Under the pieces are notes generated by a model, which was not told the origin of the DNA, made no database searches, and saw only the letters and a list, made by a program, of their open reading frames with translations. From NCBI RefSeq assembly GCF_000756715.1, contig NZ_CCSE01000001.1, positions 2,014,001 to 2,078,000 on the forward strand: 64,000 nucleotides of DNA. Direction: 5' to 3'. Positions 5,013 through 33,162 of the stretch are shown here, one piece after another. The position numbers and the translations under genes were made by a program. Numbering within the stretch: the first letter of the stretch is position 1; each line of letters begins with the position of its first letter. The stretch comes from Jeotgalicoccus saudimassiliensis. Its GTDB lineage: Bacteria > Bacillota > Bacilli > Staphylococcales > Salinicoccaceae.

Positions 5013-5558
5013 TTATATAATTTCAGTGCCAAGCGAGTTTTTGAAGTGCTGGAGCGCCATTTCGTGTGCATCAAGGTTAAAACTTGAAACGCCATTCTGA
5101 TGAATCACGATATCAAAGCCTTTGTTATATGCATCGATTGCAGTGTGAAGTATACAAATGTCGGTACAGACGCCGACCAGATGGATTTCTGTTATCCCGC
5201 GTGCCGAGAGGCGCTGTTCGATGTCAGTTCCGGCGAATGCAGAGTAACGGGTTTTATCTGTGTAATAAATATTGTCTTTGTCTTTGTTGTCCTGATAAAG
5301 AGCCTCGAGTTCGCCGTACAGATCCCGTCCGTCGGTGCCGATAATGTTATGTGGCGGAAACAGTTTTGTTTCAGGATGATACTGATCGTTTTCTTCGTGA
5401 GCATCGATTGCAAATACCGTATAATCCCCATTAACGATAAATTCGCGTGTGATATTCACGATGTAGTCGTGCAGTTTTTGTGCAGGTTCGCCTGCAGTCA
5501 GTTTGCCGTCCGGTGCAACGAAGTCATAAGTATAGTCGATGTTAAGTAATGCTTTCAT
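5013..5558 (-). CDS. pncA: Nicotinamidase (isochorismatase-fold cysteine hydrolase)
   Basis: 181 aa. The catalytic triad of the family is visible: D8 (NIDYTYDF), K102 (DKTRYSAF) and C131 (GVCTDIC). Metal ligands D52, H54 and H70 are present (IDAHEEND...FPPH). This pattern is typical of nicotinamidases, which deamidate nicotinamide to nicotinate for NAD salvage; the metal site distinguishes it from metal-free isochorismatases. A single-gene unit with its own terminator. Confidence 0.88.
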   Translation of the reverse strand: MKALLNIDYTYDFVAPDGKLTAGEPAQKLHDYIVNITREFIVNGDYTVFAIDAHEENDQYHPETKLFPPHNIIGTDGRDLYGELEALYQDNKDKDNIYYTDKTRYSAFAGTDIEQRLSARGITEIHLVGVCTDICILHTAIDAYNKGFDIVIHQNGVSSFNLDAHEMALQHFKNSLGTEII

Positions 5559-5574
5559 AAATAAATACCCCTTA

Positions 5575-5605
5575 TAAAAAAAGACAATGGCAGGCCATTG
5601 TCTTT
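5575..5605 (-). terminator. Intrinsic terminator of the aldolase gene
   Basis: AAAGACAATGG/CCATTGTCTTT hairpin (5580-5605), followed on the minus strand by TTTTTT. Confidence 0.85.
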
Positions 5606-5613
5606 AGTTTTAA

Positions 5614-6504
5614 TTATTTTTTGTTTACTGATGCGTCGTAGATAGTATCGATAGCTTCAGCTAATTTACCGTCAAACTCTTCAGCAGACTGTGCTGCGTT
5701 TAAGTCGCTTGAAAGTGCGCGTGAGAAGCTCGCGATAATACCGTCGTTTTGTTTTAATAAGTTGTTTGCTTCAACTCTCGTGTAGCCGCCTGAAAGTGCA
5801 ACAACGCGAATCACGTTAGGGTGATCAACGAGTTCTTTGTACAGGTTAGGTACAGTTGGAATTGTCAGTTTGAGCATTACAAGCTCATCTTCAGCAAGAC
5901 CGTTTAATTCTTCGAGTATTGCATCTCTTAAAATTTCTTCAATCTGCTCTTTATCTGCAGCATTGATGTTTACTTCAGGCTCGATAATCGGCACAAGTCC
6001 TGCAGCGATAATCTGTTTACCAACTTCGAACTGCTGTTCAACAACTTCAGTAATACCTTTTACGTTAGCTGAAAGAATGTTTGAACGCATTTTCGTTCCG
6101 AAGATGTGACGATCGTTTGCACGTGCTAATAAATCCTCAAGATCCGGCATTGGTTTCATAAGCTGAACACCGTTTTCCTCGTCTGCAAGTCCTTTGTCGA
6201 CTTTAAGGAATGGCACGATGCCTTTATCAGCTAAATAATCGCCAGTGTACTTGCCTTCTACTTCACGGTCCATAGTCTGTTCAAAAAGAATTGCACCGAG
6301 AACTTTGTCAGAAGTGAATGAAGGTGACGTTACGATACGTGAACGCATTTCATGTACCAGATCGAACATCTCGTCTTCATTAGTATACTGATCTTCATTA
6401 ACACCATATGCTTTTAAAGCTTTCGGTGTACTTCCGCCACTCTGGTCAAGCGCGGCAATAAAACCATTACCCTGTTTTACTTTTTCAAGTTGCTCCTGAT
6501 TCAT
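5614..6504 (-). CDS. fdaB: Class I fructose-bisphosphate aldolase
   Basis: 296 aa, full length and close to the staphylococcal FdaB type. Landmarks are [16 protein letters not shown] near residue 15, the Schiff-base lysine K212 in [12 protein letters not shown], and [13 protein letters not shown]. It cleaves fructose 1,6-bisphosphate to two triose phosphates in the cytosol without a metal. Good Shine-Dalgarno (AAGGAG) before ATG 6504. Upstream AAAGCGCTTT (6554-6563) is only a partial CcpA (cre) match. Confidence 0.93.
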
Positions 6505-21607: not shown

Positions 21608-22348
21608 ATGTCCCTGGATAGTAATGTAATTTCAAAAGAAACTTTAATCAGAAGTAAAGTACATGAAATGATTCTAAACGGTGAACTGGTCCCCGGAGAT
21701 AAATTGCCGAGCGAAAATGAACTGGCGGAAAATTATGGTGCGAAGCGTATCGATGCGCGAAACGCACTTGTCCAGCTTGAAAAGATGGGTATTGTGTACG
21801 GCAGACAGGGCGTCGGACGTTTTGTAAATGAGCCGCTGCCGGCGGTGGAGTTTTTAATTACGGGAACGACCAGCTTTTCGGAAAAAATGAAAGAACAGGG
21901 CATTCCGTACGAAAGCCGTGTAATTTACGCCGATTACGCAGACGATAAAGAGCAGGTGCAATACCGAAAGGTGCTTGAACTTAATGAAGATGTGAAAATT
22001 TTTAAAGTATCGAGGCTGAGAATTGTGAACGGGGTACCATGCGCGATTCATATTTCATATATTCGTGAAGACATGTTTCCGCATATATATGAAGAGAAGG
22101 ATAATCTGACATCGGTGTATACTTATTTTAAAACTTCGGGGTATGAACAGTTAAGAAGCAGAGACCGCATTTTATCAGCACAATTTCCGACACTGGAAGA
22201 AATGAAGCTACTGACCTGCAGTGAACTTGTGCCGCTGCTCGTTTTTGAAACGGATACTTACGATAAGGAAACGAATGACTGTCTCGAGAGAGTGAAAATA
22301 TTATATAGAAGTGATCTGTTTAAACACCAGCTGTCAGATGAAGACTAG
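21608..22348 (+). CDS. phnF: GntR/HutC family regulator, PhnF-like
   Basis: 246 aa. N-terminal winged helix-turn-helix (about 12-78: LVPGDKLPSENELAENY...RIDARNALVQLEKMGIVYGRQGVGRFV) and a C-terminal UTRA ligand-binding domain (about 90-235). HutC regulators of this kind next to C-P lyase genes are called PhnF and repress phosphonate uptake/breakdown genes. TATAAT (21572-21577) and AAGGAG precede ATG 21608. A strong terminator follows, so it is transcribed apart from phnG. The name rests on context. Confidence 0.78.
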   Translation: MSLDSNVISKETLIRSKVHEMILNGELVPGDKLPSENELAENYGAKRIDARNALVQLEKMGIVYGRQGVGRFVNEPLPAVEFLITGTTSFSEKMKEQGIPYESRVIYADYADDKEQVQYRKVLELNEDVKIFKVSRLRIVNGVPCAIHISYIREDMFPHIYEEKDNLTSVYTYFKTSGYEQLRSRDRILSAQFPTLEEMKLLTCSELVPLLVFETDTYDKETNDCLERVKILYRSDLFKHQLSDED

Positions 22349-22420: not shown

Positions 22421-22757
22421 GCGCGCGGTTTCGGATGACAACGGTGAAGTGGTGTTGTGAACCGCGCGGTTTCGGATGACAACGGTGAAGCGGTGTTGTG
22501 AACCGCGCGCCCCCGGATGACAACGGTGAAGTGGTGTTGTGAACCGCGCGCCCCCGGATGACAACGGTGAAGCGGTGTTGTGAACCGCGCGCCCCTGGAT
22601 GACAACGGTGAAGCGGTGTTGTGAACCGCGCGCCCCCGGATGACAACGGTGAAGCGGTGTTGTGAACCGCGCGCCCCCGGATGACAACGGTGAAGCGGTG
22701 TTGTGAACCGCGTGCCCCCGGATGACAACGGGCAGCCGCCGTTGTAAATCGCACACC
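22421..22757. repeat. 41-bp tandem repeat array (7 full units plus one decayed unit)
   Basis: GGATGACAAC recurs at 22433, 22474, 22515, 22556, 22597, 22638, 22679 and 22720, exactly 41 bases apart each time. The unit is GGATGACAACGGTGAAG-(C/T)-GGTGTTGTGAAC-CGCGCG plus CCCCC or GTTTC. Variation is limited to a few positions; the eighth unit diverges after GGATGACAACGG. GC content is far above the flanks. Because 41 is not a multiple of 3, all minus-strand frames stay open and cycle through the same peptides, so I do not treat it as coding. There are no unique spacers, so it is not CRISPR. Confidence 0.92.
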
Positions 22758-22899: not shown

Positions 22900-23319
22900 A
22901 TGCACAGAAAACAATGGACACGCATTTTCGCAAAGTACGGCAGATTCGAAGCACTCGAATTTTACAACAGATTCAAAGATTCTCTAGAATTCGACATTAT
23001 CAGTGAACCTGAAGAAGGGCTCGTAATGGTGAAAACGAGGGAGCATGCCAGAAATACTTTATTTTACATGGGTGAGGTGCTGGTGACCGAATCTAAAATA
23101 AGACATGGCTCAACTGTAGGGCTCGGACTCGTTAAAGGTACCGACCCCGAATTGTCGGAGGCAATGGCTTTTATCGACTTAAGTTTTAAACTGGAGAAAT
23201 TTACAGCGGAATTGAATGACATTTTAAATTCGCTTAAAGATATTGAAGCAAAATCAATTGCAGAACGCACAGAGAAAATATTACAGACTAAAGTCAGTTT
23301 CGAAATGATGAACGACTAG
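22900..23319 (+). CDS. phnG: C-P lyase core subunit PhnG
   Basis: 139 aa, the expected PhnG size, with LVMVKTREHARNTLFYMGEVLVTE and GHG-like segment RHGSTVGLGLVKG as family blocks. PhnG belongs to the PhnGHIJ core and, with PhnI, H and L, is needed to attach the phosphonate to the ribose of ATP. ATG 22900 follows AAGGAGG. First gene of an operon running through at least the PHP gene. Confidence 0.9.
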   Translation: MHRKQWTRIFAKYGRFEALEFYNRFKDSLEFDIISEPEEGLVMVKTREHARNTLFYMGEVLVTESKIRHGSTVGLGLVKGTDPELSEAMAFIDLSFKLEKFTAELNDILNSLKDIEAKSIAERTEKILQTKVSFEMMND

Positions 23320-23329
23320 GAGGATTCCG

Positions 23330-23890
23330 GTGAAAACAATCGTACATACAACACAGCAGGTATACCGTCAGCTCGTGAACGCATCGAGCCGCCCGGGACA
23401 TATTGAAAACATTGCTGAAGATGTGAAAAACTATTCGGATTTCAGCGACGCTGCACTGCTCACAGCGATGACGCTGTTCGATAATGAAATTTCATTTTTC
23501 TCGAAAGATAAAACGATGAGAAAAGAGCTGAAAGTTTTAACAGGGGCCATCCCGAATAAAGATCACACAACTGCAGATTTTATCGTGACAAAAGAAGCGG
23601 ACTTAAAGGATGAGTACTTTACGGAAGTAATGAAAGGGATTTTAATTTCTCCAGAAAAATCAGCGACACTAATCATCGATGTTGAAACGGTTGGTGAAGG
23701 AACGCTTTACAGTTTGAGAGGTCCCGGCATCAAAACGGAAACGAAGGTCAGTCTGTCGCTCGACAGTCACTGGATAAAACTGCGCAATGACATTTGTAAA
23801 GAGTTCCCGCTCGGCATTGATCTGATTCTGACGGATAAACATAACAACACGGTAATTATTCCGAGAACGACGAAAGTGGAGGTGCGGTAA
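23330..23890 (+). CDS. phnH: C-P lyase core subunit PhnH
   Basis: 186 aa, the usual PhnH length, with the N-terminal Q-x-V-YRQLVNASSRPG signature (about 9-23) and LYSLRGPGIK in the middle. PhnH dimerises at the centre of the PhnGHIJ complex. The start is GTG 23330, 6 nt after AGGAGG; the gap from phnG is 10 nt. Confidence 0.9.
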   Translation: MKTIVHTTQQVYRQLVNASSRPGHIENIAEDVKNYSDFSDAALLTAMTLFDNEISFFSKDKTMRKELKVLTGAIPNKDHTTADFIVTKEADLKDEYFTEVMKGILISPEKSATLIIDVETVGEGTLYSLRGPGIKTETKVSLSLDSHWIKLRNDICKEFPLGIDLILTDKHNNTVIIPRTTKVEVR

Positions 23891-24970
23891 ATGGGTTACG
23901 TTGCGGTAAAAGGCGGCGCGCATGCGATTAACAACTCTGTCATTCTGTATAAAAACAGAAGGCTCGAAGACGGCAGAGATATTGAAGTGGAAAATATTAA
24001 GACGAATATGCGCCAGCTGATCAACCAGGTAATGAGTGAAGCGAGCTTTTACGACAGAGACACCGCGGCACTCGCGGTTAAACAGGCGGAAGGCAACATG
24101 GAGGAAGCGGTATTTTTGATGCGTGCCCACCGTTCGACGCTGCCGAGGCTGTATTATTCAACGGTGACTGATACGCGTGAAATGTTTGTGGAACGGAGAG
24201 TATCGGCGAGCTTTAAAGATATTCCGGGCGGCCAGATTTTAGGGGCGTCACCGGATTTCACACACCGTCTCCTGGACGACCAGCTGAAAACTCTCGCATA
24301 TGGACCCAGCGAAACGATTGAGTACAAGGAAGTGCCGTTCAATTACGAACTCGATAAACTGCCGAAAGTTATCGACTATCTGGAAGATGAAGGGTTGTTC
24401 GTGAGAGAAGAAGAAAACAATGATGAACCGGATGATATTACGAAAAAAGCAATCGAATACCCGAGTACGAGAAGTCAGCGTCTGCAGGCATTAACGCGCG
24501 GTCAGACAGGTGCTGTAACGTCACTTGGCTACGCTGAAATCCGGGGTTACGGTATTTCGGCCCACCCGAATATCGGAGAATGCCGCGTCGGTCAACAGCC
24601 GGTTCATATTGATCCGGACGATGATTACGGTGAATATTTTATCGGTGACTTTGAAGTGACGGAAATCGATGCATTTATGCCGGACCTCGAGGAAGATGAG
24701 TCGGACGCAGGCGACAAAGATCTCATGATTAAAATCGGCTACGGTCTCGTCTTCGGACAAAACGAAACGAAAGCAATCGCCATGAGTGTGCTGGACTACA
24801 GTCTGGAGCATCCGGTGCCGGGTGTAGCGACAAGCGATGATGAATTCGTACTTTATCATATTGATTCGGTTGAATCGACAGGATTCATTTCGCACCTGAA
24901 ACTGCCGCACTATGTAACATTCCAGTCGAAACTTGACCGTATGCGTCAAAGTAAGGAGGAACAGCAGTGA
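23891..24970 (+). CDS. phnI: C-P lyase core subunit PhnI (purine ribosyltransferase component)
   Basis: 359 aa, collinear with E. coli PhnI as I recall it: MGYVAVKGGAHAI at the start, YPSTRSQRLQALTRG in the middle, and near the C-terminus FISHLKLPHYV, whose two histidines bind zinc in the E. coli complex. PhnI with G, H and L displaces adenine from MgATP with the phosphonate. It starts immediately after the phnH stop behind GGAGGTG and overlaps phnJ by 4 nt. Confidence 0.93.
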   Translation: MGYVAVKGGAHAINNSVILYKNRRLEDGRDIEVENIKTNMRQLINQVMSEASFYDRDTAALAVKQAEGNMEEAVFLMRAHRSTLPRLYYSTVTDTREMFVERRVSASFKDIPGGQILGASPDFTHRLLDDQLKTLAYGPSETIEYKEVPFNYELDKLPKVIDYLEDEGLFVREEENNDEPDDITKKAIEYPSTRSQRLQALTRGQTGAVTSLGYAEIRGYGISAHPNIGECRVGQQPVHIDPDDDYGEYFIGDFEVTEIDAFMPDLEEDESDAGDKDLMIKIGYGLVFGQNETKAIAMSVLDYSLEHPVPGVATSDDEFVLYHIDSVESTGFISHLKLPHYVTFQSKLDRMRQSKEEQQ

Positions 24971-25818
24971 GCCAGAACTTTGCATTTTTAGATGAACACT
25001 CGAAAAAGGAAATCCGCAGAAAAACGTTAAAAGCAATCGCCATTCCGGGTTATCAGGTACCGTTCGCGTCACGTGAACTGCCGATTGCACGGGGCTGGGG
25101 AACCGGCGGTCTGCAGCTGACACTGTCGCTCGTCGGCCGGGAAGATACGCTGAAAGTTATCGACCAGGGTTCTGATGAGTCGGTCAACGCGGTAAACATC
25201 AGAAATCTCGTACAGAATACGACCGGTGTGAAAGACACGATTCATACAGCAGAAGCGACGCTGATTCAGTCGCGCCACCGTATTCCGGAAGTACCGCTAA
25301 AGCCGTTTCAGGTTTTAGTGCTGCAGGTACCGCAGCCGGAACCGTTGAGAGCTGTTGAGCACAGTGAAAGAAAAACGAAGATGCTGCACGGTGACAAAGA
25401 ATACAGCGGGGCGTTTATAAAACTGTTCGAGCAGATTATGAAGTTCGGACATATTACGGATGATGCGGACTATCCGGTTATGGTGAACGACCGCTACGTC
25501 ATGGCACCCAGTCCGATACCGAGATTTGATAACCCGAAAATGAACTTTAATGAAGGACTGATTCTTTTAGGTGCAGGCCGCGAGAAGAAAATTCACGCTG
25601 TACCGCCGTACACGAAAGTGGAGTCACTGGCATTTGAAGATTATCCGTTTGAAGTGGAAGACTTCAGCGATAAAGTATGCCGTGAATCAGGACTGACAGG
25701 CGTCTATATGGATGAACTGCAGGACGAGGCAACAGGAGAAACATATTATGTAACAAATGATACAAGCTACATGCTTGAGAAGCTGAACGAGGAGGCTGTA
25801 CAACATGCCGGCAATTGA
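24967..25818 (+). CDS. phnJ: PhnJ homologue lacking three of the four C-terminal cysteines
   Basis: 283 aa, GTG start overlapping phnI (GTGA). PhnJ is the radical-SAM/glycyl-radical enzyme that cleaves the C-P bond. Strong similarity runs end to end: IPGYQVPF with the radical-bearing glycine (G28, E. coli G32), RGWGTGG, VIDQG, SRHRIPE, PSPIPRFDNPKM, GAGREKKIHAVPPYTKVESL. E. coli PhnJ has C241-x2-C244-x21-C266 (cluster) and C272. In a gapless alignment these positions here are C238, S241, T263 and M269. I re-read the codons (TGC, TCA, ACA, ATG) directly from 25678-25773. There is no frameshift or truncation. By known chemistry this protein could not bind the [4Fe-4S] cluster normally. Confidence 0.93.
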   Translation: MSQNFAFLDEHSKKEIRRKTLKAIAIPGYQVPFASRELPIARGWGTGGLQLTLSLVGREDTLKVIDQGSDESVNAVNIRNLVQNTTGVKDTIHTAEATLIQSRHRIPEVPLKPFQVLVLQVPQPEPLRAVEHSERKTKMLHGDKEYSGAFIKLFEQIMKFGHITDDADYPVMVNDRYVMAPSPIPRFDNPKMNFNEGLILLGAGREKKIHAVPPYTKVESLAFEDYPFEVEDFSDKVCRESGLTGVYMDELQDEATGETYYVTNDTSYMLEKLNEEAVQHAGN

Positions 25819-26647
25819 TGATGTAGTGCTGTCGATCAGAGATTTATCGAAACAATTCGGCAGCGGCTGTGAATACTGCAAGGATGAAAATTTTAAACTG
25901 CAGAAAAATATGTGTCCGCACTGTCATACCGTTTATGCGGTCAGAAATACTTCATTTGATTTATACAAAGGTGAAATTCTCGGCATCGTCGGAGAAAGCG
26001 GCAGCGGGAAAAGTACGTTGATGAAGATGCTGTACTTTGACCAGGATGCAACGTCCGGTAATTATATACTGCCGGAAGACGGTACGGTGGAAGGTAATGT
26101 TTTTAACGTCTCGAGCCAGAAAAAAAGACAGATTAGAAATGAACAGCTCGGGATGGTATACCAGAATCCGATACTTGGCCTGAAGATGGATTTTTCATCG
26201 GTAACGAACATTGCTGAAAAACTGATTGCGAGCGGCAACCGTAATGTCGGAGAAATGACGGACCGCGGGGATCACTTCCTCGGGAAAGTAAAAATTGCAC
26301 TGAGCCGTAAATACGAGGCACCGAAAAACTTTTCGGGCGGGATGCAGCAGCGTGTGCAAATTGCAAAAGCACTGTCGAACTATCCTCCGATTTTACTGCT
26401 TGATGAAGTCACAACAGGACTGGATTTATCAGTTCAGGCCGATGTGCTGGAACTGATTAAGGAAATTCAGCGCGACATGGGTGTCAGCATGATTGTCGTC
26501 TCACACGACCTTGCGATTATCCGCATGCTCTGCGACCGCACGATGGTTATGCTCGATGGGGAAGTGATTGAGCATGGCATTACCGATCAGATACTGGAAG
26601 ACCCGCAGCATAAATACACACAGCAGCTTGTGTACTCAATTCTTTAA
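25805..26647 (+). CDS. phnK: C-P lyase ABC protein PhnK with a Cys4 insertion
   Basis: 280 aa. ABC ATPase with Walker A GESGSGKS (63-70), signature FSGGMQQRVQIA, Walker B LLLDEVTTGLD, H-loop VSHDLAI. PhnK docks on PhnJ in the E. coli complex. Unusual here: before Walker A there is an insertion (about 19-45) with C22-x2-C25-x11-C37-x2-C40 (GCEYC...MCPHC), a zinc-ribbon-like or metal-binding pattern that E. coli PhnK, as I recall it, lacks. The gene overlaps phnJ by 14 nt. Confidence 0.9.
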   Translation: MPAIDDVVLSIRDLSKQFGSGCEYCKDENFKLQKNMCPHCHTVYAVRNTSFDLYKGEILGIVGESGSGKSTLMKMLYFDQDATSGNYILPEDGTVEGNVFNVSSQKKRQIRNEQLGMVYQNPILGLKMDFSSVTNIAEKLIASGNRNVGEMTDRGDHFLGKVKIALSRKYEAPKNFSGGMQQRVQIAKALSNYPPILLLDEVTTGLDLSVQADVLELIKEIQRDMGVSMIVVSHDLAIIRMLCDRTMVMLDGEVIEHGITDQILEDPQHKYTQQLVYSIL

Positions 26648-26660
26648 GAGGTGACTTATT

Positions 26661-27836
26661 TTGATAATTATAAACAGCAGCGTTATTACGGCAACGGAAA
26701 TACTTAATGATTTCGCAGTCGTTATCGACGGCGAAAGAATAGAAAAACTAATCCCGATGAGCGAAGTGAATACAGGAGATTACGAGAAAGTCATCGATGC
26801 CAAAGGCGGCTACGTGACAGCTGGATTTATCGATATTCATTCTGACTATATAGAAGGTATTATTGCGCCGCGTCCGACGACTATTATGGACTTTAATATC
26901 GGCATTAAAGAATCGGAAAGAATTTTAAGCTCACACGGAATTACAACGATGTTCCATTCACTGTCGATTTATAAAGAAGATTTATTCGGCCATAAACCTG
27001 TCAGGCAGCCCGAGAATGTCGATAAGCTGATTCATGCAATTCACCGTACACATACTGAAAAGCATTTAATCAGGCACCGTATGCATGCGCGTTTTGAACT
27101 GGATGCTGTGGAAATGCTGCCGGCGATTAAAGAGCACATTCAGCAGGACCGGATTCATCTGCTCAGTTTTATGGATCACACACCGGGGCAGGGGCAGTAT
27201 CGCGATATTGAAAACTACCGTCATACGATGAAAGGTTACCGGGATCTGTCGGACGATGAAATTAATGCACAGATTGCAGTGAAGAAAAAAATGTCGAGAC
27301 TGTCAGTTGAAGAAATGGAAGAACTCTCTGAACTGGCGAGAGCAAAAGGTGTTGCGGTCGCTTCACACGACGATGATGCGACGGAGAAAATTGATTTCAA
27401 TGAAACGCTGAAGACGACTATCAGCGAGTTCCCCATCACGATGGAAGTTGCCAAATATGCGGATGGTAAAGGCATGTCGACGCTTGCTGGTGCACCGAAT
27501 ATTATGCTCGGCGGCTCGCATTCCGGCAACTTAAATGCAAAAGATGCAATTATGGAGGGCTGCATTTCAATCTTATGCAGTGATTACTACCCGGCGGCAA
27601 TGCTGCACTCGGTATTTAAGCTTCACAGAGAAGCGGAGTACCCGCTCGTTGACGGTTTTAATCTGATTACATTAAACCCTGCCAGGGCGGTAAATATGGA
27701 TGACGAAATCGGTTCGATTGAACCGGGCAAGAAAGCGGACTTAAACATTATCAGACTGTTTGACGATTATCCGACGATTACAGAATGCATTGTTAACGGA
27801 AAAGTAGTCAGCCGGTATCATTACAGAATCGATTAG
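26661..27836 (+). CDS. phnM: RPnTP diphosphatase PhnM
   Basis: 391 aa amidohydrolase-fold enzyme with the PhnM version of the metal motif, H60-S-D62 (FIDIHSDYIEG) rather than HxH, followed by the PhnM-typical RHRMHARFEL and SFMDHTPGQGQ. It removes pyrophosphate from alpha-D-ribose 1-methylphosphonate 5-triphosphate, the step before PhnJ. Start TTG 26661, 6 nt after GAGGTGA; no in-frame ATG fits better. Confidence 0.93.
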   Translation: MIIINSSVITATEILNDFAVVIDGERIEKLIPMSEVNTGDYEKVIDAKGGYVTAGFIDIHSDYIEGIIAPRPTTIMDFNIGIKESERILSSHGITTMFHSLSIYKEDLFGHKPVRQPENVDKLIHAIHRTHTEKHLIRHRMHARFELDAVEMLPAIKEHIQQDRIHLLSFMDHTPGQGQYRDIENYRHTMKGYRDLSDDEINAQIAVKKKMSRLSVEEMEELSELARAKGVAVASHDDDATEKIDFNETLKTTISEFPITMEVAKYADGKGMSTLAGAPNIMLGGSHSGNLNAKDAIMEGCISILCSDYYPAAMLHSVFKLHREAEYPLVDGFNLITLNPARAVNMDDEIGSIEPGKKADLNIIRLFDDYPTITECIVNGKVVSRYHYRID

Positions 27837-27846
27837 GAGGAACCTC

Positions 27847-28545
27847 ATGATTACTATTAATGATTTCAGTAAATCATTTACGATTCATCATCTGGATCAG
27901 ACGAGAGAAGCGGTACAGGGCATCTCATTCAATGTGGCAAAAGGTGAATTTCTCGGCATTGTCGGTGAGAGCGGCAGCGGCAAGTCAACGATTTTAAAAA
28001 GTATTTACGGCACTTATAAGCCGACGACAGGCAGTGTACACTACGACTCTGACAGATACGGCGATGTCGATCTTCACAAAATATCAGATCGTTCACTGAT
28101 CAGTCTCCGTACACGAGAAATCGGTTATGTATCGCAGTTTTTAAAAGTGATGCCGCGTACGACTACACTCGAACTTGTCATCAATTCAATGCTTGAAATG
28201 GGCATCGATAAAGACACTGCAGCAAAAACAGCAGAAGAAACACTTGAACATTTCGACATACCAAAAGCACTGTGGCACAACTATCCGAATACGTTCAGCG
28301 GCGGTGAAAAACTGCGTTTAAATATCGCCTGTGCGGTCGTAAAAAATCCGCGTCTGCTGCTGCTCGATGAACCGACAGCATCACTTGACGAACAGTCAAA
28401 ACTGAAAGTCAGGGAAACAATCTCAAAGCTTATCGATAACGGTACGACATTAATCGGCATCTTTCATGACCTTGAATTTATGGACGGACTCTGTAATAAA
28501 GTGTACGACATGAATACGAAAACTTTGGAGGAACGGGCAATATGA
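27847..28545 (+). CDS. phnL: C-P lyase ABC protein PhnL
   Basis: 232 aa. Walker A GESGSGKS (about 40-47), signature FSGGEKLRLNIA, Walker B LLLLDEPTASLD. PhnL works with PhnG, H and I in the nucleosidase-like first step. ATG 27847 follows TAGGAGGAACCTC. The order phnK-phnM-phnL places phnM between the two ABC genes. The last 4 nt overlap the PHP gene. Confidence 0.9.
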   Translation: MITINDFSKSFTIHHLDQTREAVQGISFNVAKGEFLGIVGESGSGKSTILKSIYGTYKPTTGSVHYDSDRYGDVDLHKISDRSLISLRTREIGYVSQFLKVMPRTTTLELVINSMLEMGIDKDTAAKTAEETLEHFDIPKALWHNYPNTFSGGEKLRLNIACAVVKNPRLLLLDEPTASLDEQSKLKVRETISKLIDNGTTLIGIFHDLEFMDGLCNKVYDMNTKTLEERAI

Positions 28546-29360
28546 ACAGCAAAATAGATCTGCATGTGCACAGTAACTTTTCCGATGGTAAAGATAATGT
28601 AAATAAAGTGCTGGATCTGGCAAAAAAACGCAGCATTGAAATGTTAAGCTTCGTCGACCATGACACAAATATGACATATATTGAAGCGCTGCCTTACGCA
28701 AAAAAACTTGGAATTCAGCTGATTCCCGGCATAGAGATTTCTGCTTATGACTTTAAAAGGAACCGAAAAGTTCATGTACTCGGCTACAACTATGACCCGG
28801 ATGCACCGAATATTAAAAAATTAACGGAGCCGCTCCTCGAAAAACGACATAAACATTCACTGGAACAGATAAGAAAGATAGAAGCGTACGGTATTGATGT
28901 TGATATTGAAGAAGTGAAGAAGACTGCGGGGCCGCTCGGTGTCATTTACAAGCAGCATATAATGCATGCGATATGCGATGACCATTATACGTGTCCGAAG
29001 TATACGACGAAGTATCGCACACTGTTTAAAAACAGCGGTCCGGCGGCAGGGGATATTGAGTATATCGACTATGCGGATGCACTTAAAGCGATTAAACAGG
29101 ACGGCGGATTGACTGTTATTGCACATCCCGGCCAGCTGAACAGTTATGAACTGATTGACGACAGCTATCAGCTGATTGACGGTCTGGAGAAGTATCATCC
29201 GGATCACAGTGAGGCAGATTTAGAAAGAATAGATGCACTGACTGAAAAGTATGGATTTTTTATTACGGGAGGTTCGGACTTTCACGGTGATTTTGGCAAT
29301 ACTGTTGAAATTGGTATAGACAGTGAATTGTTAAAAGAGACAGCCGGTTTATTTAGATAG
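28542..29360 (+). CDS. PHP-domain phosphoesterase, likely cyclic ribose phosphate hydrolase (PhnPP type)
   Basis: 272 aa PHP-family hydrolase: HVHSNFSDG (8-16), SFVDHD (about 36-41), GIEIS, VIAHPG and GGSDFHG give the usual His/Asp metal set. The operon has no phnP (cyclic phosphodiesterase) or phnN. A PHP-family enzyme of this class from Eggerthella lenta was shown to open 5-phosphoribosyl 1,2-cyclic phosphate and remove the phosphate. I infer the same role here from the position directly after phnL with a 4-nt overlap. Confidence 0.8.
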   Translation: MNSKIDLHVHSNFSDGKDNVNKVLDLAKKRSIEMLSFVDHDTNMTYIEALPYAKKLGIQLIPGIEISAYDFKRNRKVHVLGYNYDPDAPNIKKLTEPLLEKRHKHSLEQIRKIEAYGIDVDIEEVKKTAGPLGVIYKQHIMHAICDDHYTCPKYTTKYRTLFKNSGPAAGDIEYIDYADALKAIKQDGGLTVIAHPGQLNSYELIDDSYQLIDGLEKYHPDHSEADLERIDALTEKYGFFITGGSDFHGDFGNTVEIGIDSELLKETAGLFR

Positions 29361-29454
29361 CATAAACATGTGTTAAGTAGTTGTAAATCGCATTTACTAT
29401 AGCCCTGGAATGATTTTAAATTAGTCTTGTAAATAAAATTTAAGGAGTTTGAAA

Positions 29455-30516
29455 ATGAAAAAGTTATTCAATGTTTTTCTTGGTTCAGCTTTTGTACTGG
29501 CACTTGCAGCATGCGGCGGAGAAGAAGACCCACAGGCAGAGAGCGGATCAGCTGATGCAGCTGAAAACAGCGACGAGCCTCTGAGTGTTGTCTGGTACCC
29601 TAACGAATCAGGCAGTGAGCTTGCTGATGCACGTGAGGAAATCGGTGCAATTTTAGAAGAAACTACAGGCAGAGAAGTGGAGCATGAATTGACTACTGAC
29701 TATGCAATCGCAATAGAGAGCATTGTTAATGATAACGCTGACCTGGCATTTACAGGTGCAGAAGGATACATACAGGCGAAAAACCGCAACGATAATATTG
29801 TTCCGTTAGTAGTGCCGTCAGGGCCGTCAGGAACTGAAGAAGACGCATTGTACTACAGCTGGTTTGCTACACAGGTGGATAACATGGAGAAGTTTGAAAC
29901 AGGCGACGGTGAATATTCAATCGATAAATTCCCCGGCACGAATTTCTCATTCGTTTCAACTTCATCGACATCAGGTTTCAGAGTTCCAACTGCAACGATT
30001 CTGAGTCACTTCACTGAAACAGAAGAGTATGCTGACTTAACTGAGGAAGACCTTGCAGAAAGCGGCCGTTTCTTTGAACAGGTTATGTTCGGAAATACGC
30101 ACCAGGGCTCTGCAGTGAACTTAATTAATGAAAGAGCTGAGCTTGCAGCTTTCTGTGACACATGTCTTGAGAACTACGTTGAACTGGCAGAAGGTGAAGA
30201 AAACACACCTGGAGCGATTTACGAAGTGTCTGAAGGTGCAGCGGATCCATTCTCGAACCTTGCAGGAGAGCAGTTTGGAATCATTTCAGCAACACCGGTA
30301 CTGAATGCACCGTTTATCGCTAACGAAAGTACTCTTGGTGCTGACACTGTTAAGGAAATCCAGGAAGTATTTTCATCGGACGAAGTGGCGAACAATGAAA
30401 AAATCTTCGTACCTGAAGATGCTGAAGAAGGCGGCTTATTCACTAAATCAGCAGATGAGCGCTTCGTAGTTGTTGAAGATGAGTGGTTCGATCCAATCAG
30501 AGAACTGAGCAATTAA
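29455..30516 (+). CDS. phnD: Phosphonate/phosphate ABC transporter substrate-binding lipoprotein PhnD
   Basis: 353 aa. Signal peptide with lipobox LALAAC (Cys about residue 20), then an acidic linker and a PhnD/phosphonate-binding periplasmic fold (SVVWYPNESG, STSSTSGFRVPTA, FGNTHQGSAV). The start is ATG 29455, 7 nt after AAGGAG; a TTG at 29449 lies too close to that box. It stands 94 nt after the PHP gene and may have its own promoter. It delivers substrate to PhnC/PhnE. Confidence 0.9.
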   Translation: MKKLFNVFLGSAFVLALAACGGEEDPQAESGSADAAENSDEPLSVVWYPNESGSELADAREEIGAILEETTGREVEHELTTDYAIAIESIVNDNADLAFTGAEGYIQAKNRNDNIVPLVVPSGPSGTEEDALYYSWFATQVDNMEKFETGDGEYSIDKFPGTNFSFVSTSSTSGFRVPTATILSHFTETEEYADLTEEDLAESGRFFEQVMFGNTHQGSAVNLINERAELAAFCDTCLENYVELAEGEENTPGAIYEVSEGAADPFSNLAGEQFGIISATPVLNAPFIANESTLGADTVKEIQEVFSSDEVANNEKIFVPEDAEEGGLFTKSADERFVVVEDEWFDPIRELSN

Positions 30517-30600: not shown

Positions 30601-31518
30601 ATGGTGGTGGACAACAAAGTAAAGGAAGTTAAGGAAACAAGGACGGACTTTTATCAAAAGGAAGCAGAAGAGGTACTCATTTCATTCGATGAAGATATTG
30701 AAATTACAGGCGGGGAAGTAGAGACTGCGACTAAAGAAGAAGTCAGAGAAATGCCTGTCATTATGTCGATTGAAAATCTGAATAAGGAATATTCAAAAGG
30801 TAAATCAGTGCTGAAAGATGTCAATTTCGAAATAAAACAGGGTGAGCTGCTGTCGATTATCGGACCGTCCGGAGCCGGTAAATCAACACTTCTTCGTTCC
30901 ATCAACCGCATGATAGAGCCGACTTCCGGAAAAATCACATTTAATAATGAAGACATTACCAGTGTTAAAGGACGCGAACTGCGCCGTATGAGAACAAATA
31001 TCGGCATGATTTTCCAGCATTATAATCTGGTGGACCGGTTGTCTGTATATGAAAACGTACTGCACGGTACACTGGGATATAAAAACAGTCTGCAGGGGAT
31101 TTTCTCGTTGTATACCGAATCGGAAAAAGAAGAAGCACTGGATATAATTACCGAGCTCGGTATCGAAGATCACATTTACAAACGCTGTGACGAGCTGTCC
31201 GGGGGACAGAAGCAGCGTGTCGGTATTGCGCGTGCGTTAGTCCAGAAGCCGAAAATTATTTTATGCGATGAACCGATTGCATCACTTGACCCGGGTTCAT
31301 CGAGGGTTATTATGGAGCATCTGAGAAAAATCTGCAGCGAAAAAGGTATCACTGTTATCGTTAACCTGCACCAGGTGGATGTAGCGAAAAATTATTCAGA
31401 CAGAATTATCGGCTTAAACAGCGGTGAAGTAGTCTTTAACGGTCATCCGACAGAGATTGACAGGGAAGTCATTCAGTCAGTTTACGGTACAGACTTTGAT
31501 GATTTAATTATGGAGTAG
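30601..31518 (+). CDS. phnC: Phosphonate ABC transporter ATP-binding protein PhnC with N-terminal extension
   Basis: 305 aa. Walker A GPSGAGKS (about 92-99), signature LSGGQKQRVGIA, Walker B ILCDEPIASLD, H-loop NLHQVDVA. The usual PhnC begins at a segment equivalent to MSIENLNKEY (about residue 55); here about 54 acidic, lysine-rich residues precede it. The GTG-rich start is preceded by AGGAGG at the right distance from ATG 30601, supporting the long form; translation from the internal ATG near 30763 cannot be excluded. Confidence 0.88.
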   Translation: MVVDNKVKEVKETRTDFYQKEAEEVLISFDEDIEITGGEVETATKEEVREMPVIMSIENLNKEYSKGKSVLKDVNFEIKQGELLSIIGPSGAGKSTLLRSINRMIEPTSGKITFNNEDITSVKGRELRRMRTNIGMIFQHYNLVDRLSVYENVLHGTLGYKNSLQGIFSLYTESEKEEALDIITELGIEDHIYKRCDELSGGQKQRVGIARALVQKPKIILCDEPIASLDPGSSRVIMEHLRKICSEKGITVIVNLHQVDVAKNYSDRIIGLNSGEVVFNGHPTEIDREVIQSVYGTDFDDLIME

Positions 31519-31525
31519 GTGAGTA

Positions 31526-32341
31526 ATGATGAATAAAACAAGTACAGTTCATCCAAACGAAATTACAATTATTCAAAAGAAAAATTTATACCTGCTGCTG
31601 ACAGTCGTCATTATTGTCGGGTTGATTATGCTTGCAGGCTACATAACTGAATACAGTCATATTGAAGGAATTATGTCGATTCCTGCTGCGATGTCATGGA
31701 TGGCGAGCAATATGTGGTTTTCGGCATCAACTTTATCAAACCTCGGCAGTGTTCTCAGACTCTTATGGGAAACGATTTTAATTTCAATCGTGTCGACGAC
31801 AACTGCTGCGGTATTCGCAGTGGTCTTTGCGTTGTTCGGTTCAAAACTGACTTATATTAATAAGCCGCTGATGTACGCAGCTAAAATCATCGCCTCAATT
31901 TCCCGTAACATTCCCGTTGTGGCGTGGGCGCTGATTTTAGTCATCAGTTTCGGAACGAACTCCATGACCGGATTCCTTGCGTTATTCTTCGGATCATTCG
32001 GATTTTTAGTCAGAGCATTTCTTGAAACAATCGATGAGGGCAGTGAGGATTCTGTTGAAGCATTACAAGCGACAGGTGCCACCTACTGGCACACGATTTT
32101 TAAAGCTGTGCTGCCGGACAGCATGCCGCAGATGTTCAGCTGGATACTCTTTATGATTGAAACGAATATCCGCAGTGCAACGCTTGTCGGACTGCTGACA
32201 GGTACAGGTATCGGTTACTTATTCGACCTGTATTATAAACAGCTGAACTATGAAATGGTGACGCTGATTACACTGGCTATTGTCATTGCGGTGCTTGTAA
32301 TTGAAGCATTATCGAATATTATCAGAAGGGAGATTTTATAA
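31526..32341 (+). CDS. phnE: Phosphonate ABC transporter permease PhnE (first copy)
   Basis: 271 aa with about six membrane segments and the permease EAA-type loop EALQATGATYWHTIFKAVLPDSMPQ (about residues 180-204, described by position) that contacts the ATPase. It starts 7 nt after phnC and its stop shares a base with the next ATG. Confidence 0.9.
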   Translation: MMNKTSTVHPNEITIIQKKNLYLLLTVVIIVGLIMLAGYITEYSHIEGIMSIPAAMSWMASNMWFSASTLSNLGSVLRLLWETILISIVSTTTAAVFAVVFALFGSKLTYINKPLMYAAKIIASISRNIPVVAWALILVISFGTNSMTGFLALFFGSFGFLVRAFLETIDEGSEDSVEALQATGATYWHTIFKAVLPDSMPQMFSWILFMIETNIRSATLVGLLTGTGIGYLFDLYYKQLNYEMVTLITLAIVIAVLVIEALSNIIRREIL

Positions 32342-33162
32342 TGAGTACAGTCGTTGAATATAATAAAAATGGCGGTATTAAGGTCTCCAAACCGAACAGA
32401 GGACAGAGGGTACTGAAAGGTCTGCTAATCGGTTCTTTAATATTTACGGTAATCGGTTTTTTCCTGATGGATTACACAGGTCTCGATCTCGCACATGCGA
32501 TTCCAATGACGATCGATAACCTCGGACAGATGTTTTTATCTCCCAGTTTAAACAACACGACGTGGACGAGTGCTTTATGGCAGGTGACAGTCACGCTGTC
32601 ACTCGCATTTTTAGCGACAATTCTAGGTGCGGTGATATCGCTGTTTCTTGCTTTTGGTACTGCAGTGAACTTATCGAAACCGTGGATCAGTAACACGATA
32701 AAAGGATTTATAACAGTCGTACGTGCTGTTCCGACAGTGCTGTGGGTATTAATTTTTGCGATTGCAGCAGGACTTGGTGCAGTGGCTGCGGTTATCGGGA
32801 TGATTTTCCATTCGATTGCGTATCTCGTTAAGGCGTATTCGGAAGCTTTTGAAGAAGTGGATGAGGGGAAAATTGAAGCTCTACGTGCGACGGGATCGAG
32901 TTATTCACATATTCTGTTCCAGGTTGTTGTGCCGCAGACGAAAAGCTTTTTAATCTCATGGACATTTTTGAGATTTGAAATCAATTTCGGGGTCGCTGTG
33001 GCGATGGGTGCAGCAGCAGGAGCAGGCGGTATCGGATATGAACTGTTCATGGCGAGCTCGTTCTATTACGATATGCAGGAAGTAGGAGCAATTACACTGA
33101 TTATTCTTGTTGTGGCAATTATTCTTGAACTGATTGCAAACAAATTAAAAGCTAATGCATAA
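32341..33162 (+). CDS. phnE: Phosphonate ABC transporter permease PhnE (second copy)
   Basis: 273 aa, about six membrane segments, EAA-type loop IEALRATGSSYSHILFQVV (about 179-197). Diverged from the first copy, so the translocation pore is probably a heterodimer. Last gene of the phnDCEE unit, followed by a strong terminator. Confidence 0.9.
   Translation: MSTVVEYNKNGGIKVSKPNRGQRVLKGLLIGSLIFTVIGFFLMDYTGLDLAHAIPMTIDNLGQMFLSPSLNNTTWTSALWQVTVTLSLAFLATILGAVISLFLAFGTAVNLSKPWISNTIKGFITVVRAVPTVLWVLIFAIAAGLGAVAAVIGMIFHSIAYLVKAYSEAFEEVDEGKIEALRATGSSYSHILFQVVVPQTKSFLISWTFLRFEINFGVAVAMGAAAGAGGIGYELFMASSFYYDMQEVGAITLIILVVAIILELIANKLKANA

Follow-up and report, generated by a model that had tools for sequence, protein, structure and literature searches.

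Otherwise Intact C–P Lyase Operons Whose PhnJ Lacks Two or Three of Four C-Terminal Cysteines in Jeotgalicoccus saudimassiliensis and Other Bacteria

The DNA analyzed here, referred to as the window, is a stretch of 64,000 nucleotides from Jeotgalicoccus saudimassiliensis (contig NZ_CCSE01000001.1, positions 2,014,001 to 2,078,000). It contains the genes phnG, phnH, phnI, phnJ, phnK, phnL, and phnM, all present and intact, as in a C–P lyase operon. C–P lyase forms methane from methylphosphonate and takes part in phosphorus recycling. The genes, together with the codons and the insert discussed below, are as follows.

21608..22348, + strand: GntR/UTRA regulator, phnF-like (Pfam GntR and UTRA; best NCBIfam match PhnF, below cut-off)
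22900..23319, + strand: phnG (PF06754; TIGR03293 over cut-off)
23330..23890, + strand: phnH (PF05845; TIGR03292 over cut-off)
23891..24970, + strand: phnI (PF05861), zinc-site His219, His328, and His333 (E. coli numbers) kept according to residue mapping
24967..25818, + strand: phnJ (PF06007, 439.6 bits), without three of the four C-terminal cysteines
25048..25050, + strand: PhnJ Gly28 codon (E. coli Gly32, the proposed radical glycine), kept according to residue mapping
25678..25680, + strand: PhnJ Cys238 codon TGC (E. coli C241), the sole cysteine of the four kept, found in 185/185 distinct PhnJ
25687..25689, + strand: PhnJ Ser241 codon TCA (E. coli C244), from alignment
25753..25755, + strand: PhnJ Thr263 codon ACA (E. 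coli C266), from alignment
25759..25761, + strand: PhnJ Asp265 codon, the other invariant residue of the C-terminal domain (185/185)
25771..25773, + strand: PhnJ Met269 codon ATG (E. coli C272, the proposed thiyl radical), from alignment
25805..26647, + strand: phnK (best NCBIfam match TIGR02323 PhnK, below cut-off)
25859..25930, + strand: PhnK insert CxxC-x11-CPxC (residues 19–42), lying between strands one and two; E. coli PhnK has no such insert
26661..27836, + strand: phnM (TIGR02318 over cut-off)
27847..28545, + strand: phnL (best NCBIfam match TIGR02324 PhnL, just below cut-off)
28542..29360, + strand: PHP phosphoesterase, probably a phosphoribosyl 1,2-cyclic phosphate (PRcP) diphosphodiesterase (NF041661, 2yb1)
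29449..30516, + strand: phosphonate-binding protein, phnD-type (PF12974)
30601-31518, + strand: ABC-transporter ATPase ORF, phnC type by position and sequence reading
31526-32341 and 32341-33162, + strand: permease-like ORFs, phnE type by position and sequence reading

The window had previously been interpreted from its letters alone, and that sequence-only reading described the genes around phnJ as intact. This was borne out: phnG, phnH, phnI, phnK, phnM, phnL, and the phnD-type gene are open and match their families, with the scores of K, L, and D under the NCBIfam equivalog cut-offs. The best family for the PHP protein is NF041661, at 256 bits under an equivalog cut-off of 500, and the nearest PDB chain is 2yb1. 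Between the GntR regulator and phnG, at positions 22432-22731 of the window, a unit of 41 bp is repeated in tandem (7.3 copies, 96% match).

The phnJ gene is a 283-aa open reading frame with a GTG start, and its profile score, compared with the PF06007 cut-off of 25 bits, places the product in the PhnJ family. Alignment with phmmer against 7z15_D and 4xb6_D put C238, S241, T263, and M269 of the window at C241, C244, C266, and C272 of the E. coli protein, and G28 at G32. These are the substitutions that had been claimed earlier, with C238 as the only cysteine left. The description of that alignment as gapless needs amendment: residues 3–271 are aligned, with one single-residue gap just before the first cysteine. 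Two to three bases separate each of TCA, ACA, and ATG from TGT or TGC, and thus single miscalls cannot explain the loss.

In the available text of a review, C241, C244, and C266 are the ligands of the cluster and C272 is the attacking residue, and the use of zinc in place of an intact cluster is mentioned (PMC7916636). C241 is the only one of these four that the PhnJ of the window retains. The available text of a structural study places the proposed cluster site 30 Å from the proposed radical glycine Gly32, and in 2023 the structural biologists of the enzyme called its mechanism an unresolved conundrum (PMC9947105). All four PhnJ cysteines are treated as conserved in the accessible part of a further paper (PMC11978286).

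The four cysteines were mapped in relatives of the window, as the sequence-only reading had proposed. Cysteine states are written in the order C1-C2-C3-C4, with CCCC for a complete protein, and a PhnJ without some of C2–C4 is called a loser. PhnJ was found in 20 of 157 genomes of the window's order, and cysteines were missing in all 20: 19 are C-S-T-M and one is C-S-A-M, with Macrococcoides caseolyticum (L051) belonging to this order. A sample of the phylum (398 genomes) contained 21 genomes with PhnJ including that of the window, and the 20 others, readable at the four positions, were CCCC; an additional match (L041) is truncated where its contig stops. A sample of the class (398 genomes) contained 25 with PhnJ, and the 23 loci beyond those already sampled comprised 20 CCCC, two losers (C-T-C-L and C-T-C-M), and one unreadable locus (L134) with an in-frame TAG. 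Such a TAG interrupts the phnJ matches of two Bacilli genomes, L134 (G594) and G1017:C2:180998-181812, which may be decaying.

The family of one of the class-sample losers, designated the second Bacilli family, was then counted separately. PhnJ is encoded in 47 of its 200 genomes: 25 are CCCC, 21 are losers, and one gene is broken. These losers are C-T-C-M, C-T-C-L, or C-T-T-M, and Cys3 is mostly retained; in the C-T-C-M genomes, Cys2 and Cys4 are absent while Cys3 stays. Five losers were found among 80 named loci taken from at least 591 confirmed matches: L051, Solibacillus palustris (L054), a Ureibacillus MAG (L057), and MAGs labeled Anaerolineaceae (L058) and Erysipelotrichaceae (L069). Plasmids provided seven losers among 14 loci examined of 215 records, a share that is uninformative since the last five loci were chosen for closeness to Thermus. 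The PhnJ proteins of Thermus thermophilus HB8 plasmid pVV8 and of Thermus SNM7-6 are C-T-V-M and C-T-I-M, respectively, and five alphaproteobacterial plasmid proteins are C-S-[LV]-[GA]. Plasmid pVV8 is reportedly the subject of a 2012 paper in Extremophiles. The available text of another article describes this plasmid as enriched in phosphonate metabolism genes (PMC5529391).

After removal of duplicates, 189 distinct PhnJ sequences remained, of which 137 are CCCC, 50 are losers, and two are unreadable. Cys1 is present in 188/188 of the proteins readable at that position. Each of 41 loser genomes has a single phnJ match.

A tree was built from PhnI and the PhnJ core, excluding the C-terminal domain, for 77 chosen rows, and two changes of state are needed on it. 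One clade (SH-aLRT 98) unites the Bacilli-type losers, and a second (SH-aLRT 100) those from Thermus and Alphaproteobacteria. A single origin of all losers was rejected (AU test, 42 rows, p-AU 4.5e-5). The losses of PhnJ cysteines thus fall in two separate clades and represent at least two events. A tree of PhnJ alone (125 rows) gives four changes, on poorly supported forks, and the count of losses was taken from the combined tree.

Selection on phnJ was estimated after dropping pairs with saturated dS or dS under 0.05, which were many; with dS near saturation, the ratios are rough. In the genus of the window, phnJ has a median dN/dS of 0.033 (22/36 pairs usable), and its C-terminal domain one of 0.057 (16/36 pairs usable). 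The corresponding values for 18 losers of the second family are 0.049 (67/153 pairs) and 0.098 (50/153), and those for 23 Cys-complete members are 0.054 (84/253 pairs) and 0.149 (83/253). Compared with Cys-complete relatives, the dN/dS values give no sign of relaxed selection on the C-terminal domain of the losers.

These values bear on the possibility that the loss is a sequencing error, a pseudogene, or decay confined to this strain, for which no support was found in the phnJ of the window. The multibase codon differences, the recurrence throughout the order, and the low dN/dS oppose this explanation, which is hardly credible. The earlier remark that simple decay is not obvious was therefore sound, as cysteines are missing from all PhnJ of the order at a dN/dS of about 0.03. 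The dN/dS test that it proposed indicates strong purifying selection on phnJ in this genus. The case that would have favored decay, in which close relatives are intact and selection is relaxed in this strain only, was not encountered in the order, where 20/20 have lost cysteines and no relaxation is seen. A recently inactivated lyase, one of three options offered earlier, is not supported, given the loss in every PhnJ found in the order and in a second clade, the same dN/dS, and the lack of relaxation.

The comparison of residue conservation covered distinct PhnJ proteins only, namely 49 losers and 136 that are Cys-complete. Within the C-terminal domain (residues 231–278 of the window protein), C238 and D265 are the only invariants, in 185/185 PhnJ. 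At C2, 25 losers have Ser and 24 have Thr. At C3, 22 have Thr, 19 retain Cys, and the rest carry another residue; C4 has given way to Met in 41, Gly in four, Leu in three, and Ala in one. At C4, Gly or Ala is found in the alphaproteobacterial losers and Met in those of Thermus. A further scan, over PhnG, H, I, J, K, and L, looked for alignment columns where both loser clades carry letters that occur in at most 10% of complete operons. Four columns were obtained: PhnJ C2, PhnJ C4, a weak one in PhnI, and a weak one in PhnL. The natural variation in these alignments speaks for C272 and C244 being dispensable together and for C241 being indispensable.

The residues G32, loop 47-50, R107, H108, and Q124 of PhnJ and H219, H328, and H333 of PhnI are identical in 36/36 losers tested; the sequence-only reading had stated that the glycyl-radical Gly28 and all other PhnJ blocks are kept. 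The accessible text on the E. coli structures links the PhnJ loop, R107, H108, Q124, and all three of these PhnI histidines with the site that holds substrate and zinc (PMC9947105). The losers share with E. coli PhnJ the family, the fold (as predicted for the window's protein), Gly32, R107/H108/Q124, the PhnI zinc-site histidines, and the PhnK-binding Asp229. They differ from it at C244 (S/T), C266 (T/V/L/I/A), and C272 (M/L/G/A), with C241 always kept and C266 retained in most losers of the second family.

An AF2 model of the window's PhnJ has a mean pLDDT of 87, with blocks 231–270 at 92–94. It superimposes on E. coli PhnJ (7z19_D) with Z 35.4 and an rmsd of 1.9 Å over 273 residues, the C-terminal domain included, and on this basis that domain should be able to fold in the absence of its metal. 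The PhnK model matches E. coli PhnK (7z19_I) with Z 30.4 and an rmsd of 1.6 Å over 230 residues, a match tied with those to other ABC ATPases. Among the structure matches of the PhnJ model, those to chains other than PhnJ and PhnH were treated as common folds. Cys2–Cys4 have been replaced, and strong selection has maintained the protein, its predicted fold, the operon, and those substrate-site residues of PhnI and PhnJ that were tested.

A comparable case is that of the zinc-free (C-minus) zinc-ribbon ribosomal proteins, in which a Cys4 metal site was dismantled and the fold kept. Unlike those proteins, the PhnJ losers retain one invariant Cys and one invariant Asp, and this pair suggests a catalytic role. 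The invariance of Cys1 could also be structural rather than catalytic.

The possibility that the cluster resides elsewhere was considered first for PhnK, whose four-cysteine insert in the window was not mentioned in the sequence-only reading. PhnK was counted as readable only with a Walker A motif. The insert is present in 43/43 distinct losers of the Bacilli clade and in 106/132 Cys-complete PhnJ operons with a readable PhnK; 26 lack it, and five more are not determinable. It occurs in 0/6 readable losers from Thermus and Alphaproteobacteria. The seventh, L155 (Nitratireductor sp. OM-1), has no insert by eye; its phnK is frame-shifted in the record at about 5376-6200, the neighboring phn genes being annotated, and its PhnK row was a fragment in the scans for parallel changes and shared cysteines. 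More generally, a CxxC...CxxC insert characterizes most sampled Bacillota and several other operons that are not of the E. coli type.

The insert, with or without C238 of PhnJ, might hold a [4Fe-4S] cluster replacing the PhnJ site; in favor of this, it accompanies the loss in the Bacilli clade, including the 20/20 genomes of the order that combine loss and insert. The structure model positions the insert between strands one and two with good confidence, and PhnK of E. coli binds PhnJ according to the available text of PMC9947105. Its frequency in Cys-complete operons, its absence from the readable Thermus and alphaproteobacterial losers, and a motif that resembles a zinc ribbon make such a relocation rather improbable. 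As a general answer it was dropped, and with it the earlier option of a relocated cluster, given that Cys-complete Bacillota possess the insert and the second loser clade does not. The insert is common in operons with complete PhnJ and hence probably predates the loss; it is possibly a zinc knuckle that contacts PhnJ.

The plasmid L042 of Mesobacillus foraminis illustrates this relationship: its gene order is G-H-I-J-K-M-L and its PhnK has the four-cysteine insert, as in the window, whereas on this plasmid and in other complete Bacillota operons all four PhnJ cysteines are present. The operons of pVV8 and of the alphaproteobacterial plasmids resemble that of the window in having lost Cys2–4 and kept Cys1. 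They differ in belonging to a separate clade and in having no PhnK insert.

Cysteines were also counted over the entire PhnGHIJKLM complex. The operon of Thermus HB8 (L043) encodes three and that of Thermus SNM7-6 (L049) two, and the only one common to both is PhnJ Cys1. With so few residues, a cluster held by cysteines of this complex is excluded in Thermus as judged from the encoded proteins, unless it is brought by another protein. The alphaproteobacterial losers have one conserved cysteine each in PhnH, PhnI, and PhnJ (Cys1); a common cluster site formed by these is unlikely, and because of those in PhnH and PhnI the exclusion is strict for Thermus only. Beyond PhnJ, the conserved cysteines of the Bacilli losers are the four of PhnK, which most Cys-complete relatives also have.

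Glycyl-radical enzymes require a radical glycine and one cysteine. A separate radical-SAM activase could accordingly generate a radical on Gly28 of PhnJ, as in pyruvate formate-lyase (PFL), with one cysteine sufficing. Gly28 and one cysteine are in place in the window, and G32 is invariant in the losers tested. In the genome of the window, however, the radical-SAM profile PF04055 matches moaA and hemW only, and the PFL-activase model TIGR02493, the one activase model used, gave no match there at E 0.001. In those Thermus and alphaproteobacterial stretches that carry annotation, none of the genes is named as an activase, and such an arrangement is very improbable.

The neighboring genes of the losers were examined with respect to the reaction. 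The genes phnG, phnH, phnM, and phnL and the PHP gene occur together in 40/41 Bacilli-type loser loci, a set that counts some genomes more than once; the sole exception is L166, near a contig end, where phnM and the PHP gene were not found. Among the Cys-complete Bacillota operons, the PHP gene is present in 6/10 loci looked at. It was not found in the stretches examined around the Thermus and alphaproteobacterial operons. PhnP was not found in the loci scanned, an absence of little weight because the E. coli PhnP query was incomplete. The adjoining PHP gene suggests that the canonical product, PRcP, may still be made by the Bacilli losers.

The explanation favored, by a modest measure, is that these operons encode a working C–P lyase complex in which the metal site of the PhnJ C-terminal domain has been dismantled and which relies on one conserved cysteine. 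Such a complex would still convert ribosyl-phosphonate to PRcP and alkane at the site formed by the PhnI zinc and PhnJ. The PhnJ of the losers would bind no [4Fe-4S] cluster, and its C-terminal domain would pack through Ser/Thr and Met/Leu (or Gly/Ala) in place of the metal. Cys1 rather than Cys4 would supply the essential thiol or thiyl, Gly28 might serve as a radical reservoir, and a non-SAM or nonradical route is possible. Against this stands the biochemistry of the E. coli enzyme, which in the available text of the review puts the cluster on C241/C244/C266 and the radical attack on C272 (PMC7916636). Also counting against it are the PHP score under its equivalog cut-off, the failure to find a PHP gene in the Thermus and alphaproteobacterial stretches examined, and the frame-shifted phnK of L155. 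Another protein may also bring the cluster.

The same absence of the residues proposed for the cluster and the thiyl, which the published mechanism as presented in the accessible review text requires (PMC7916636), could instead mean that C–P cleavage has been lost. The complex would then have another job, for example the PhnI nucleosidase step only or a nonradical cleavage of other phosphorus compounds, with PhnJ as a scaffold. This alternative has to contend with the tested substrate-site residues and Gly28 kept in 36/36 losers, with the PRcP-enzyme-like gene beside phnG, H, M, and L in nearly all Bacilli-type loser loci, and with an invariant C1 in a domain under purifying selection, and it is judged unlikely. 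The different reaction suggested earlier is thus possible, but the retained substrate-site residues and, in Bacilli, the adjoining PRcP-phosphodiesterase-like gene fit better with the same net reaction and a changed cofactor need.

A working lyase with a dismantled metal site leads to a broader and more speculative proposal. The CxxC-x21-C-x5-C motif of PhnJ might in general be a dispensable structural metal site and not a catalytic radical-SAM cluster. Cys241 would then carry the reaction in every C–P lyase, along with Asp268, Gly32, and the zinc site of PhnI, so that the mechanism published so far, based on the cluster and Cys272, would have to be revised. This is offered as a conjecture with somewhat poor prospects. 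Natural complexes with neither the cluster ligands nor the proposed thiyl cysteine, but with one universal cysteine and every other tested feature retained, make the disputed mechanism directly testable. The losers, if active, are candidates for simpler and perhaps less oxygen-sensitive C–P lyases.

No report of a Cys-lacking PhnJ was found in the literature, a weak negative since most subscription papers lay outside the reach of the search. Surveys demanding four PhnJ cysteines would miss such genes. The accessible text of a marine survey states that sequences were kept or removed according to residues deemed essential, and if the PhnJ cysteines are among these, Cys-poor PhnJ would drop out (PMC9381506).

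Two observations concern Cys-complete operons. In the genus coded g301, where L222 (G760) was compared with the other genomes, one genome has a Cys-complete PhnJ (L131) positioned elsewhere in the tree, and the other PhnJ proteins are Cys-poor; horizontal exchange of operons may account for this. Divergent Cys-complete Phn operons are carried by Proteus and Martelella plasmids (L045 and L048), on long branches and with 41–47% identity to the PhnJ of the window.
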